64,000 nt of DNA, taken from assembly GCF_000761215.1 (NCBI RefSeq), contig NZ_CP009438.1, positions 4,729,501 to 4,793,500 on the forward strand, given 5' to 3'. The stretch's first letter is position 1, and each line of letters begins with the position of its first letter. The translations under genes were made by a program, and so were the position numbers. A model generated the notes under the pieces. That model ran no database searches, was not told where the DNA came from, and saw nothing but the letters and a program-made list of their open reading frames with translations. Positions 57,357 through 62,772 of the stretch are shown here, one piece after another. Source of the DNA: Streptomyces glaucescens (GTDB taxonomy: Bacteria > Actinomycetota > Actinomycetes > Streptomycetales > Streptomycetaceae).

Positions 57357-58634
57357 ATGGACGTCATCTCCGTCATCCGCACCAAGCGGGACCGCGGTGA
57401 GCTCAGCGACGAGCAGATCGACTGGGTCATCGACGCGTACACCCGCGGGGAGGTCGCCGACGAGCAGATGTCCGCGCTCGCCATGGCGATCCTGCTCAAC
57501 GGCATGAACCGCCGGGAGATCGCCCGCTGGACCGCCGCGATGATCGCGTCCGGCGAGCGCATGGACTTCTCCTCGCTGTCCCGCCCGACCGCCGACAAGC
57601 ACTCGACGGGCGGCGTCGGCGACAAGATCACCCTGCCGCTGGCGCCCCTGGTCGCGGCCTGTGGCGCGGCCGTCCCGCAGCTCTCGGGCCGCGGCCTCGG
57701 CCACACCGGCGGCACCCTCGACAAGCTGGAGTCGATCCCCGGCTGGCGGGCCCTGCTCTCCAACGAGGAGATGCTGCACGTCCTGGACACCACGGGCGCG
57801 GTGATCTGCGCGGCGGGCGACGGCCTGGCCCCCGCGGACAAGAAGCTCTACGCCCTGCGCGACGTCACCGGCACGGTCGAGGCGATCCCGCTCATCGCCT
57901 CCTCGATCATGTCGAAGAAGATCGCCGAGGGCACCGGCTCCCTGGTCCTGGACGTGAAGGTCGGCTCCGGCGCCTTCATGAAGACGATCGAGGACGCGCG
58001 CGAGCTGGCCTCCACCATGGTGGGTCTCGGCACGGACAGCGGCGTGAGGACGGTCGCCCTCCTGACCGACATGTCCACCCCGCTCGGCCTCACCGCGGGC
58101 AACGCCCTGGAGGTCCGCGAGTCGGTCGAGGTCCTGGCCGGCGGCGGCCCCGCGGACGTCGTGGAGCTGACCATCGCCCTGGCCCGCGAGATGCTCGACG
58201 CGGCGGGGGTGAAGGACGCCGACCCGGCGAAGGCCCTGGCCGACGGCTCGGCGATGGACGTCTGGCGCCGGATGATCGCGGCCCAGGGCGGCGACCCGGA
58301 CGCGCCCCTGCCGACCTCCCGCGAACAGCACGTCGTCAAGGCCCCGTCCGCCGGCGTCCTGACCCGCCTCGACGCCTACGACATCGGCATCGCCGCCTGG
58401 CGCCTCGGCGCGGGCCGCGCCCGCAAGGAGGACCCGGTGCAGGCGGCGGCGGGCGTCGAGATGCACGCCAAGCCGGGCGACACGGTCACCGAGGGCCAGC
58501 CCCTCCTGACCCTCCACACGGACACCCCGGAGCGCTTCGAGTACGCCCTGGAGGCGGTCCGCGGCTCCTTCGACATCGCCGCCCCCGGCACGGACTTCAC
58601 CCCGTCCCCGGTGGTGCTGGAACGTATCGCCTGA
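57357..58634 (+). CDS. deoA: thymidine phosphorylase
   Basis: 425 residues, normal pyrimidine-nucleoside phosphorylase length. The phosphate/nucleoside motif KHSTGGVGDKITLPLAPL, the family signature GRGLGHTGGTLDKLESIPG and LVLDVKVGSGAFMK are present. It cleaves thymidine or deoxyuridine to base and deoxyribose-1-phosphate, following cdd in salvage. The ATG at 57357 is behind GGAAGGAAAG. A 14-15 bp terminator follows. Confidence 0.95.
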   Translation: MDVISVIRTKRDRGELSDEQIDWVIDAYTRGEVADEQMSALAMAILLNGMNRREIARWTAAMIASGERMDFSSLSRPTADKHSTGGVGDKITLPLAPLVAACGAAVPQLSGRGLGHTGGTLDKLESIPGWRALLSNEEMLHVLDTTGAVICAAGDGLAPADKKLYALRDVTGTVEAIPLIASSIMSKKIAEGTGSLVLDVKVGSGAFMKTIEDARELASTMVGLGTDSGVRTVALLTDMSTPLGLTAGNALEVRESVEVLAGGGPADVVELTIALAREMLDAAGVKDADPAKALADGSAMDVWRRMIAAQGGDPDAPLPTSREQHVVKAPSAGVLTRLDAYDIGIAAWRLGAGRARKEDPVQAAAGVEMHAKPGDTVTEGQPLLTLHTDTPERFEYALEAVRGSFDIAAPGTDFTPSPVVLERIA

Positions 58635-58656
58635 CCTGCGGTTTCCTCGTACGGGT

Positions 58657-58690
58657 GAACGGGACCGGTGGACCACCACCGGTCCCGTTC
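58657..58690 (+). terminator. terminator after deoA
   Basis: A perfect 14-bp stem (58657-58670 with 58677-58690) that can gain one more pair, with a 4-6 base loop, 22 bases after the stop. The intron insertion site is 40 bases further on. Confidence 0.82.
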
Positions 58691-58701
58691 GGCATGCTGG
58701 G

Positions 58702-58723
58702 ATCGGTGACGCACCGATAGGAG
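58702..58723 (+). promoter_or_regulatory. hairpin and ribosome-binding site of the intron-interrupted Uma2 gene
   Basis: ATCGGTG-ACG-CACCGAT (58702-58718) forms a small stem directly followed by AGGAG (58719-58723). AGGAG is six bases before the A at 58730, the first base of the split start codon. Confidence 0.7.
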
Positions 58724-59383
58724 ACCGCCAGTGCGACACGAAGTCGCTCCACCCAAGTAGATGACCTGCAAGGGGAAGAAGATCATGAGCAGGTCATCCC
58801 GGACCAGTGTCCAAGGTCCGTCCCCACTTCCGCATGCGTCGCTGGTAACGGCGGGGTGTGAAGCCGGAAGGGAAAGCTCAAGAGCAGTCCGGCCATCGGG
58901 TCGCAACAAGCGAGGGGAAGACCGGACGGGCTAATGAAAATGAACCCTTGAAGAAGTCCCGTAACTCCTGTGCCGCGTCGATGGTGAGCTGTCGGCGGCA
59001 GACAGGCCCTGGCGTGGAAGAGCGCACGACGACCCCTGAGGATTGGGGCTGAAGGGGGAGGACACCGTCGGGCCCGGGATTAAGAGGGAGCCCACCCCGG
59101 TCGCATCTTGTGGGAGCGGAACGTGGAAACCCCGTTGGAGTCCGGGCGTTGATCCCGGTAATCCGGAGGTAACGAAGGACCAAGCCTCCAGCGGGACAGG
59201 ATGATCCGAGAAGCGAACGCCGACAGGGCGAAAGCCCAGAGGAAAAGGACGCGGTGCCCCCAGCCGTGTCCCATAACTCGTCGGATACGAGGCACCGTGC
59301 CCCGGCCCGAAAGGGAGCCCACGCGGATCAGGTAGGCCCGTGAAGAAGAACTGTGAAGAACCCCGAACCGAAGGGCAAGTTGG

Positions 59384-61168
59384 ATGCCGAAGGCAGGTGT
59401 GGCAGTGACCGCTACGGCGGCGCTGCCTCCTACGACGGCGAACGGACCGGAGGACTACGCCCAGACCTGGCACAGCATCGACTGGGCCAAGGCGGAGGCG
59501 TCGGTACGGCGACTGAGGCAGCGCATCTTCACAGCCGCGCAGGGAGGGGACCTGAAGAAGGTCCGCAACTTGCAGAAGCTCATGCTGCGGTCCCACTCGA
59601 ACACGCTCGTGAGCGTGAAGCGGGTAACGCAGCAGAGCGCAGGCCGTCGGACGGCCGGGATCGATCAGGAACGCGCGCTCACTCCGATCGCGCGAGGACG
59701 GCTGGCTGCTGAGATCACAGCGGAACGCTCGCCTGGAAAACCCCTGCCCGTCCGGCGCGTGTACATTCCCAAGACCAACGGAAAGCAGCGACCCTTGGGT
59801 ATTCCAGTCATCCGTGACCGGGTCCGCCAGGCCCGCGTCAAGAACGCACTGGAACCCGAGTGGGAAGCCCGGTTCGAACAACGAAGCTACGGCTTCCGCC
59901 CCGGCCGGGGTTGTCATGACGCTATCGGCGCTATCTACATCGTCGCAGGCCAGAAACGGGCCAAGCGGTTATGGGTGCTCGATGCGGACCTGACGGCGGC
60001 ATTCGACCGCATCTCACACGACCACTTGATGAACCTCATCGGGGCCTTCCCCGCACGGGATGCAATCCGAGGGTGGCTCAAAGCGGGAGTGATGGACTGC
60101 GGACGGCTCTCGCCCACTGGGGAGGGAACTCCTCAGGGCGGTGTCATCAGCCCACTGCTGCTCAACGTGGCCTTGCACGGCATGGAAACGGCAGCCGGGC
60201 ACCTCGCAGAGGGACGCTCCAACAAGTCCCGAAGAGATGCCCCGGTGCTGGTCCGGTACGCAGACGACTTCGCTGTGTTCTGTCACAGTGAAGAAGAGGC
60301 GCGCCGGGTCAAGGAGCAATTGTCTCAATGGATGGTCCCACGAGGGGTCGCCTTCAACGAGGAGAAGACGTCTGTCATCCACCTTGAAGAAGGTTTCGAC
60401 TTCCTCGGGTTCAATATCAGGAGATACAACGGCACCCTGCTGATCAAGCCGAGTAAGGCGGCCGTAAGGAGGGTCCGGGAACGGCTCCGCAGTGAAGTGA
60501 TCGGCCTGAGAGGGGCGAACGCTGCGGCTGTGGTGAGAAAGCTCAACCCGATCATCAAGGGTTGGGCCACCTACTACCGGACGGTGGTGTCCAAGGAGAC
60601 CTTCAAGTCCCTGGACTTTTACGTGTGGACGCTCACGCAGAAGTGGGTCAAACACTCCCACCCGAACAAGCCGAAGAGCTGGCGCCTGGCCAAGCACTAC
60701 GGCGTTTTCAACTCGACCCGGAAGGACCAGTGGGTATTCGGTGACCGGGATACCGGCACCTATCTCTACAAGTTCAACTGGACCAGGATCGTCCGGCACG
60801 TGATCGTCAAGGAGGGTAACTCTCCTGACGACCCCTCGCTGGCCGACTACTGGGTGAGCCGCCGTCGCAAGAGGATGCCCGGGACCGCCGACAGGTGGAC
60901 CATCACCCTCGCATCCCGCCAGAAGGGGATCTGTCCGCTGTGCAAACAGCCATTGATCCCCGACGCCGAGTACACACCGGACAACCCTCGCGAGTGGGCC
61001 GCGTGGTTCTCGGCATCGATGAAGCCGCTGCACAAGCACCACTTCATCTACCGGCGCGACGGCGGCACGGACGAGCGGACGAACCTTCGCCTCGTACACG
61101 CCGACTGCCATCGCCAGCACCACGCCGGCGACCACAGAAGGGCCAAGCAAGATGACCGACCCGCGTGA
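59384..61168 (+). CDS. ltrA: group II intron-encoded reverse transcriptase/maturase with HNH endonuclease
   Basis: 594 residues. RT blocks: RRVYIPKTNGKQRPLGIP, QRSYGFRPGRGCHDA, VLDADLTAAFDRISH, GTPQGGVISPLLLN and the catalytic VRYADDFAVF (about residue 291). The maturase X domain follows (GFDFLGFNIRRYN, LNPIIKGWATYYR). The C-terminal HNH endonuclease is complete: CPLCKQPL, HKHHFIYRRDGGTDERTNLRLVHADCHRQHH with both Cys pairs. It should assist splicing, cut target DNA and copy the intron. Leu196 is a TTA codon (59969-59971), the bldA-dependent codon of Streptomyces. Confidence 0.95.
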   Translation: MPKAGVAVTATAALPPTTANGPEDYAQTWHSIDWAKAEASVRRLRQRIFTAAQGGDLKKVRNLQKLMLRSHSNTLVSVKRVTQQSAGRRTAGIDQERALTPIARGRLAAEITAERSPGKPLPVRRVYIPKTNGKQRPLGIPVIRDRVRQARVKNALEPEWEARFEQRSYGFRPGRGCHDAIGAIYIVAGQKRAKRLWVLDADLTAAFDRISHDHLMNLIGAFPARDAIRGWLKAGVMDCGRLSPTGEGTPQGGVISPLLLNVALHGMETAAGHLAEGRSNKSRRDAPVLVRYADDFAVFCHSEEEARRVKEQLSQWMVPRGVAFNEEKTSVIHLEEGFDFLGFNIRRYNGTLLIKPSKAAVRRVRERLRSEVIGLRGANAAAVVRKLNPIIKGWATYYRTVVSKETFKSLDFYVWTLTQKWVKHSHPNKPKSWRLAKHYGVFNSTRKDQWVFGDRDTGTYLYKFNWTRIVRHVIVKEGNSPDDPSLADYWVSRRRKRMPGTADRWTITLASRQKGICPLCKQPLIPDAEYTPDNPREWAAWFSASMKPLHKHHFIYRRDGGTDERTNLRLVHADCHRQHHAGDHRRAKQDDRPA

Positions 61169-61184
61169 CTCCAGGGGCCCGCTT

Positions 61185-61219
61185 GAGCCGGATGCGGTGA
61201 ACAGCCGCACGTCCGGTTC
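61185..61219 (+). ncRNA. group II intron domain V
   Basis: GAGCCGGATGC at the 5' side pairs with GCACGTCCGGTTC at the 3' side, with the two-base bulge expected before the distal helix. The terminal loop reads GAACA (35 bases in total), one base longer than the common GAAA tetraloop. Confidence 0.9.
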
Positions 61220-61222
61220 TGA

Positions 61223-61260
61223 GGGGGCCGGGGGGCGGCAACGCCCTCCGGCTACCCGAC
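61223..61260 (+). ncRNA. group II intron domain VI with branch-point A
   Basis: An 11-bp helix (61227-61237 with 61242-61252, one G-U) capped by a GCAA tetraloop. Below it GGG (61224-61226) can pair with CCC (61255-61257), bulging A61254, seven positions from the 3' splice site, where the branch A should be. Confidence 0.8.
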
Positions 61261-61844
61261 TGAGCGCACTCACCGTCAGCCACGACCCCGAGCAGGGCTG
61301 GGACGACCTGGTCCGGTTCTGGGAGGAGATGGAATGGCCTGAGGGCAGCAAGGTGGAGATCATCGAGGGGATCGTCACCGTGTCACCTGCTCCCGCGTCC
61401 CGCCACAACGTCATCGCGGAACGTATCCAGCGTCGCCTCTACTCCGTGATCCCCGAGGACTTGGGCATCTTCCAGACGCAGGCCATCGCTGTGCCCTCAC
61501 GGCTGGGCATGCTCATCCCGGACCTGCTGGTGGCGCCGGTGCAGGAATGTGCGGAGACGGATTCGCACCTCCCTGCCGCCCTCGCGGAACTCGTCGTCGA
61601 GGTGACCTCGAAGTCGAACGCCCGCCACGACCGCGTCAGCAAACCTGCCGCGTACGCCACGGCCGGCATCCCGCTCTACCTCCTCGTCGACCGCTGGGCC
61701 CCCGGCGGCCCCACCGTGACGCTCTACGGCGAGCCGAAGGGTGACGTCTACCGTGTCCTGAGCGCGGTGAAGTCCGGCGACCCGATCAAGCTGCCCGAGC
61801 CGTTCGGCCTGACCCTCGACACCGGCGAGTTCCCCACCGAGTGA
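61261..61844 (+). CDS. Uma2-family endonuclease-like protein; start codon split by the group II intron
   Basis: After exact intron removal the gene is A58730 joined to 61261-61844: 195 codons including stop, 194 residues beginning MSALTVSHDPEQGW. The Uma2 (PF05685, PD-(D/E)XK-like) core is intact: KVEIIEGIVTVSPAP, LIPDLLVAP, LVVEVTSKSN, HDRVSKPAAYATAGIPLYLLVDR. Uma2 proteins are nuclease-like and abundant in Streptomyces; their role is unsettled. Without splicing, the frame is also open from an ATG at 61152 inside the intron, which would add 35 residues. It is 7 bases from the convergent transporter gene stop. Confidence 0.88.
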
Positions 61845-61851
61845 CCCGGAC

Positions 61852-62772
61852 TCACCCCAGCACCGCCGCCACCACCACCAGCCCCGGCACCGACACCACC
61901 GTCGACAGCAGGATCGCCTCCCGTGCCAGCACCTCGCCCACCCGGTAGGTGCTCGCGTACGTGTACAGGTTCTGCGCGGCGGGCAGGGCCGACGTCACCA
62001 CCACGTCCAGCAGCGCGGCCCCCCGCAGCCCGAACACCCCGGCCGCCAGTGCCCAGGCGACCAGCGGCTGGGCGACGGTCTTGAGGGCCACGGCCAGCAC
62101 CACCGGGGCCTGCTCGCCGCCCCGCAGCGGCAGCGTGCTGCCGCGCAGCGAGATGCCGAAGGCGAGCAGCACCGCCGGGACCGACATGTTGCCGATCAGG
62201 GTCAGCGGGTCCATCACCGGCCCGGGCAGGCGCAGCCCCGCCGCCGACACCGCCACGCCCGCCAGCGAGCCCAGCGCGATGGGGTTGCGCAACGGGGTGA
62301 CCAGCCGCTGCCACAGCGGCCGTTTCGACCCGCCCGTCGTCAGGTCCAGGATCGTCACCGCGACCGGCGTCACCCCGACGAGCTGGAACAGCAGCACCGG
62401 CGCCACGAGTGAGGCATCGCCGAGGACGTACACCGCGATCGGGATGCCGAGGTTGCCGGAGTTGACGTAACCGGCGCACAGCGCGCCGATCGTCGTACGG
62501 CCCACGCCCCAGCGGCGGACCACGCCGACCGCGACGAACACCCCGGCCACCGCGGCCGTGGCGAGCGCGGTGACGAGCAGCCGGGTCGAGAACACCACGG
62601 ACAGGTCGGCTCCCGCGAGCGTGGTGAACAGCAGGGCGGGGGACGCCACGTGGAAGGCGAGCTTGGTCAGCACCTCGCGGCCCTGTCCGCCGAGGTAGCC
62701 GCGCCGCCCGATGGCGTAGCCGACGCCGATCACCACCGCGATCACCGCGAAGCCGCTCAGCACCCCCTGCAC
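61852..62772 (-). CDS. AEC-family transporter (auxin efflux carrier-like)
   Basis: 306 residues from GTG 62772 behind AGGGGA. Ten hydrophobic helices in two halves, with GYVNSGNLGIPIAVYVLGDASL at the broken helix of the first half and TSALPAAQNLYTYASTYRV near the end, both family hallmarks. AEC proteins export organic acids or related anions. The frame is open 41 codons further upstream, but that part is Pro/Arg-rich and unlike the family. Confidence 0.87.
   Translation of the reverse strand: MQGVLSGFAVIAVVIGVGYAIGRRGYLGGQGREVLTKLAFHVASPALLFTTLAGADLSVVFSTRLLVTALATAAVAGVFVAVGVVRRWGVGRTTIGALCAGYVNSGNLGIPIAVYVLGDASLVAPVLLFQLVGVTPVAVTILDLTTGGSKRPLWQRLVTPLRNPIALGSLAGVAVSAAGLRLPGPVMDPLTLIGNMSVPAVLLAFGISLRGSTLPLRGGEQAPVVLAVALKTVAQPLVAWALAAGVFGLRGAALLDVVVTSALPAAQNLYTYASTYRVGEVLAREAILLSTVVSVPGLVVVAAVLG

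Follow-up and report, generated by a model that had tools for sequence, protein, structure and literature searches.

A group II intron within the initiation codon of a Streptomyces Uma2 gene, and a related intron lineage at translation starts

The initiation codon of a Uma2 gene in Streptomyces glaucescens is interrupted by a complete group II intron, which lies between A58730 and T61261-G61262 of the 64,000-nucleotide stretch analyzed here (contig NZ_CP009438.1, positions 4,729,501 to 4,793,500; hereafter the window, all features described being on its forward strand). Related introns occupy the start codons of other genes, and we consider it likely that the element belongs to a mobile group II intron lineage of actinobacteria, specialized on translation starts and bringing along a substitute start in frame with the host gene. 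Splicing of the window intron and translation of its products we infer from the sequence. Loci, genomes and contigs are cited by our own numbers (L, G and C).

The split Uma2 start codon

Read along the window, the site consists of AGGAG (58719–58723), six bases, A58730, the intron itself (58731–61260, 2530 nt, opening with GTGCG and closing with CCCGAC), and then T61261 and G61262. AGGAG is both the Shine-Dalgarno sequence of Uma2 and the intron-binding site 2 of the intron (IBS2, exon positions −12 to −8); CCGCCA (58725–58730), which directly abuts the GTGCG end, is IBS1 (exon positions −6 to −1) and contributes its last letter, A58730, as base 1 of the start codon. The second exon (61261–61844) opens with TG, bases 2 and 3 of the start codon, and holds the remainder of the gene, with the stop at 61842–61844; its frame is that of Uma2 (PF05685, E 9.5e-21), and the joined exons encode a protein of 194 residues. 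The initial annotation had placed the intron ends and the exon junction from the letters alone, with an ATG six bases after AGGAG and a 194-residue Uma2 on joining; every coordinate proved correct, and both the sequence and the translation of the joined exons confirm this reading.

The identity of the intron is supported by matches to Rfam families RF02012 and RF00029: group II domain I scores 41.1 bits at 58799–58885 (gathering score 34), and domains V and VI, which match RF00029, score 55.5 bits at 61183–61260 (gathering score 40). Domains V–VI fold with a z of −5.85, leaving the branch-point A61254 unpaired, 7 nt from the intron 3′ end, and the termini GTGCG and GAC agree with the group II end rule (5′ GUGYG, 3′ AY). 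Between these elements lies the gene for a 594-residue intron-encoded protein (59384–61168) with RVT_N, RVT_1, maturase (GIIM) and HNH domains, which scores 324 bits against TIGR04416 (cut-off 300) and has one match only across the 7.62 Mb genome. Introns of the group II family depend on a maturase for splicing.

Uninterrupted loci, which the initial annotation had thought worth seeking in other Streptomyces, fix the junction. A 734-base query with both flanks joined was compared with 295 genomes of the genus; the best 30 loci of a longer list, close relatives by choice, comprise the window's own genome and 29 empty sites. All 29 are colinear through the junction with no base gained or lost, reading ATG in 25 and GTG in 4, and AGGAG lies close by in 21 of them. 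TGAGC is preceded by C at the intron end but by A or G where the intron is absent, and CCA is followed by G in the intron but by T in the uninterrupted loci; because the intron-end bases differ from the empty-site bases on both sides, the junction has no room to shift. Every empty locus encodes a full-length Uma2 (194–196 residues), these being best-scoring matches and hence biased to intact genes.

Guide sequences and the sites occupied by the lineage

The target-reading elements were located by a covariation scan of 33 introns that differ in their exon ends, aligned over their first 680 bases, in which the complementarity of each column to the intron's own exon was set against that to the exons of the others and assessed by permutation (42 introns were reduced to 33 by dropping L081, L082, L103, L090, L089 and L018 by hand, together with L094 and L106, which have no 5′ motif, and L108, which has a short flank). 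Exon positions −8 to −13 pick out columns 58964–58965 (exon-binding site 2, EBS2) with a z of 9.0 (next column 3.3), positions −1 to −6 pick out columns 59043–59044 (EBS1) with 8.8 (next unrelated column 3.5), and position +1 picks out column 59082 (EBS3) with 7.5 (next 3.5), where complementarity holds in 94% of the 33 sites; these permutation z-values ignore relatedness and should not be read as probabilities. The EBS2 of the window is CUCCU (58965–58969), which pairs with AGGAG in 5/5 positions and resembles the anti-Shine-Dalgarno core of 16S rRNA. EBS1 falls in UUGGGGC (59043–59049), and EBS3 is A59082, which pairs with T61261, base 2 of the start codon; such pairing of a separate single base with exon +1 is a mark of IIB-type introns. 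An EBS1 in the hairpin near 58995, where GGCGG matches CCGCC, was considered and rejected, the scan signal being weak there (z 3.3 at 58990) compared with that at 59043–59049.

All of the start-codon introns have a pyrimidine-rich EBS2: CUCCU, AGCUCC (L008), UCCCC (L009), ACUUCC (L198, paired by eye) and ACUCC (L095). The distal 5′ exon guide thus amounts to an anti-Shine-Dalgarno, and the spacing between EBS2 and the splice site places the cut within the start codon.

Other genes are struck in the same way. Our census of relatives is partial (80 of 255 were taken from the contig scan, and the follow-up search scored four candidates per genome), and within it an intron lies between bases 1 and 2 of the start codon of a DUF6243 gene (L006, S. 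ipomoeae); of TctB, whose start is GTG and whose GTGA overlaps the TctC stop (L008); of a DUF397 gene (L009); of a DUF6879 gene in a genus other than that of the window (L198); of a GNAT acetyltransferase gene (G148, left flank on contig 47 and right flank on contig 25, the contig ends being paired by elimination in a genome with two intron copies); and, in a separate lineage, of a short-chain dehydrogenase (SDR) gene (L095). Pfam backs the identity of the host gene at each of these further sites. A tree of 43 intron proteins (without L101 and L175, which have no intact protein, and L026, which is too short) contains a branch of support 100/97 that separates 12 rows from the rest, namely 11 start-codon insertions and L007, with L095 placed elsewhere; the tree is unrooted and holds no cyanobacterial outgroup, so that this group is a split.

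A single chance insertion that happened to strike a start codon would be in keeping with the relatives outside the 12-row group, which sit mostly at other places and many of them within open reading frames, but this explanation is hardly credible and is already contradicted by the seven different genes hit at the same start-codon bond, six of them within one group. Insertion in an initiation codon, which the initial annotation regarded as unusual, is indeed so for group II introns generally, though in this lineage it is the rule. The pattern of GGAG, spacer and intron end occurs at nine places in 394 genomes, seven of which are start-codon sites; the place in G574 is not one, and that in G670 resembles the L099 site by sequence. 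A search of phage records for the intron gave no match, and 108 plasmid records have one.

Among the remaining relatives, L096 (G201:C656) was discarded as a start-codon site and counted with the others; its intron stands one base before the ATG of a SPDY/DUF317 gene and so separates any ribosome-binding site from the start codon. In L090 (G183:C503) an intron end CCCGAC is followed directly by the start of another intron, GTGCGACGTGAGG, either a head-to-tail pair or an assembly artefact. The introns of L016, L026 and L100 appear to lie in frames that resemble, by eye, other group II reverse transcriptases (for example in a PQGG motif), a twintron-like arrangement. Two further targets recur: L097, L099 and L101 share CACTGGGA(G/A)GG(T/C)GACC|T(C/G)ATCATCGG, which by eye resembles an IS30-type transposase, and L083, L147, L158, L168 and L172 share CAACTGAAG(C/T)GCTCAGT|CA, for which no gene was identified.

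An in-frame start inside the intron

Beyond what the initial annotation described, the intron contains a second ATG, at 61152, which is in frame with Uma2. It lies 10 bases behind the AAGG of AAGGG (61138–61142), a possible Shine-Dalgarno sequence, and the frame it opens shares its first 17 bases with the end of the maturase gene (maturase stop 61166–61168). This frame crosses domains V and VI and enters Uma2 in phase, giving a read-through open reading frame of 230 residues (61152–61844) made up of 36 intron codons, a hybrid codon (C|TG) and then Uma2; the extension it encodes begins MTDPRDSRGPLEPD.

An internal ATG 103–109 bases ahead of the junction, with a Shine-Dalgarno-like motif before it and a frame open to the junction, is present in 13/13 start-codon introns tested, compared with 3/35 others (L017, L027 and L094), the 13 including L006 by way of the frame that matches DUF6243 (automatic frame choice gave 12/13). 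These counts leave out same-site or duplicate copies (L084, L092, L104, L107, L109, L174, L177, L200 and L081), L082 and L018 (incomplete), L090 (tandem), L179 (contig end), L007 (unclear) and L199 (maturase deleted, ATG present). In L009, L198 and L095 the internal ATG and the maturase stop overlap in the sequence ATGA, and in L008 the maturase frame runs past the ATG. Its place and phase are kept in L001, L008, L009 and L198 while the bases that follow differ. At other sites (L010, L011, L083, L085 and L086) the intron proteins end nearby and no such internal ATG was found.

The initial annotation saw in the insertion a translation switch, with no normal start codon unless the intron is excised. 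This idea is supported in part: normal initiation needs excision, but the unspliced RNA has ATG61152 and its 230-residue frame, so that failure of splicing need not mean absence of Uma2 protein. Judged from the anatomy, coupled re-initiation could give an N-terminally extended Uma2 from unspliced RNA. A regulatory switch, with Uma2 off until a controlled splicing event, would account for the lack of the normal AUG before excision, and it has a group I precedent in Clostridioides difficile, where a c-di-GMP aptamer steers splicing and the placement of the ribosome-binding site (PMC3984707). We nonetheless regard it as improbable: the in-frame internal start is there in unspliced RNA of all 13 start-codon introns, the interrupted genes share no function, most alleles are free of the intron, and no riboswitch or other RNA family besides the intron families was detected by Rfam in 57500–62500, a scan taken to E = 1 that an aptamer of undescribed type would escape. 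We found no sign of regulation, which these data neither support nor contradict.

The same bond of Uma2 is occupied in nine other genomes of our partial census: S. tibetensis (L002), S. seoulensis A01 (L003), S. olivaceoviridis (L004), S. ipomoeae (L005), Streptomyces sp. SolWspMP-5a-2 (L013), G172, G148 (a copy seen as two contig ends), G297 and G582. These copies span intact to decayed. G297 has no intact intron protein; in G582 (L199, contig C4) intron positions 1007–2390 are missing, leaving ~1.15 kb from which most of the maturase gene is lost while domains V–VI and the internal ATG are retained, with a frameshifted Uma2 downstream; and in G172 (L180, G172:C1:4977000-4984000) the intron at the Uma2 start is broken by an insertion of 1308 bases that carries integrase-core (rve) and HTH_21 domains. 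Between the window and S. tibetensis, identity is 98.3% in the intron, 90.6% in the left flank and 85.0% in Uma2, and for S. seoulensis the values are 97.2%, 88.3% and 83.8%; introns so much more alike than their flanks are a sign that the element reached this shared site by recent movement. Upstream of the split gene in the window lies a thymidine/pyrimidine nucleoside phosphorylase gene (57357–58634; PF00591, PF07831, PF02885), which on our own reading we take to be deoA-like.

Several observations weigh against a lineage adapted to start codons and furnished with a spare start. The pairing of EBS1 with IBS1 in the window amounts to only 4/6 pairs, with two registers tied and a mismatch at −4 in both (EBS1 is UGGCG in L004, L005 and L013, where the pairs are unbroken and the −4 mismatch is absent), so that the window copy may splice less well. 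In the IIB intron RmInt1, IBS1 is the most important element for excision, which single changes lower to between 86% and 12% of the wild-type level; IBS2 is required for homing, but excision proceeds without it (PMC3123198); on this comparison the window copy should still splice, with an efficiency that is uncertain. L007 was dropped as a start-codon site, since on the left it adjoins the reading frame of an LPMO_10 domain and on the right a flank with no Pfam match: either the site is not a start codon or the flanks are chimeric. Most of the start-codon introns share descent, L095 standing outside the main group, and the internal start therefore represents about two independent origins, not five. 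In S. ipomoeae (intron 92.7%, left flank 90.0%) and G172 (90.8% and 90.0%) the gap between intron and flank is small, so that recent transfer is not evident and an older presence is possible. Finally, Uma2 is frameshifted in two of the ten intron-bearing loci (L004 and L199).

These frameshifts, set against 0/29 in the empty loci (a similarity-chosen set that favors intact genes), would also be expected if the intron were a plain parasite that silences a dispensable Uma2, which then decays, the internal ATG being without function. The EBS1 mismatch of the window copy points the same way, as do the maturase losses in G582 and G297 and the interrupted intron of G172. We think this unlikely, for Uma2 is open in 8/10 carriers, the internal ATG keeps its place and phase in four introns whose following bases have diverged, and it arises again in L095.

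Proposed mechanism and relation to known systems

The preferred reading, of an intron lineage specialized on translation starts, can be set out as follows. Sequence comparison shows EBS2 to be complementary to a Shine-Dalgarno sequence, EBS1 to the spacer behind it and the A of EBS3 to the U of AUG; a good target is therefore a ribosome-binding site with a start codon at the right distance, the intron coming to lie between A (or G) and UG. On this proposal what the RNA guides recognize is a motif of Shine-Dalgarno type, and not the start codon as such, which is struck on that account. From what is known of the family, the intron-encoded protein would help the RNA to splice and to reinsert, and excision would restore the AUG, from which the native 194-residue Uma2 would be made. 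In unspliced RNA, the anatomy suggests that ribosomes ending the maturase gene could restart at the adjoining ATG, giving Uma2 preceded by residues from the 36 intron codons and the hybrid codon. As spliced and unspliced RNA would both yield Uma2, we propose that the insertion is tolerated either way.

A bolder version, which we offer tentatively and hold to be possible rather than probable, is that a retroelement lineage has evolved to read initiation sites via an RNA copy of the ribosome's anti-Shine-Dalgarno and compensates for the damage with an internal Shine-Dalgarno sequence and ATG, which are tied to the maturase stop and kept in phase across domains V–VI; two proteins would then be made per host gene, a native one from spliced and an N-terminally extended one from unspliced RNA, in a ratio set by the maturase level, and ribosomes crossing domains V–VI would oppose splicing. 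Were this so, the internal start would serve whatever gene is split behind base 1 of its start codon. The preferred reading itself makes the element a mobile ribozyme that finds gene starts by mimicking the ribosome, with a portable address present before many genes. It opens to direct test the questions of how a retroelement persists in start codons unpurged and of whether splicing and translation compete for the unspliced intron RNA, and the guide rule could be used to direct introns of this kind to start codons in laboratory Streptomyces.

In the titles and abstracts covered, neither a start-codon lineage nor any bacterial group II intron in an initiation codon was recognized; the likeliest precedent, Michel et al. 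2007, lies outside that coverage and may bear on the novelty of the lineage. The closest solved intron protein by sequence is the TeI4-type maturase of Thermosynechococcus elongatus (PDB 6me0, E 1.6e-114). TeI4-type introns share the reverse transcriptase, maturase and HNH layout and the reading of targets by EBS1, EBS2 and EBS3, and differ in that they do not generally insert in start codons. An intron family of T. elongatus without an ORF is placed between a closely spaced pair of start codons belonging to the open reading frame of another intron (PMC2882425).

Two further group II introns meet translation signals in other ways. That of Azotobacter vinelandii groEL, said to be of a lineage with a large 5′ insertion, is reported to lie at the termination codon of its host gene (PMC4465626); like the Uma2 intron it interrupts a codon essential to translation, which is a stop there and a start in Uma2. 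C.te.I1 of Clostridium tetani has start codons for downstream open reading frames in domains V–VI, such that unspliced RNA is translatable (PMC3919590). It thereby shares with the Uma2 intron a start codon in the domain V–VI region for use in unspliced RNA; it differs in serving alternative splicing of surface-layer genes, in lacking an intron-encoded protein and in not lying in a start codon. The C. difficile riboswitch and group I intron pair differs in being group I and ligand-controlled, no aptamer accompanying the Uma2 intron in the Rfam scan of 57500–62500; it resembles the Uma2 case in that splicing decides how a start codon and its ribosome-binding site meet (PMC3984707).

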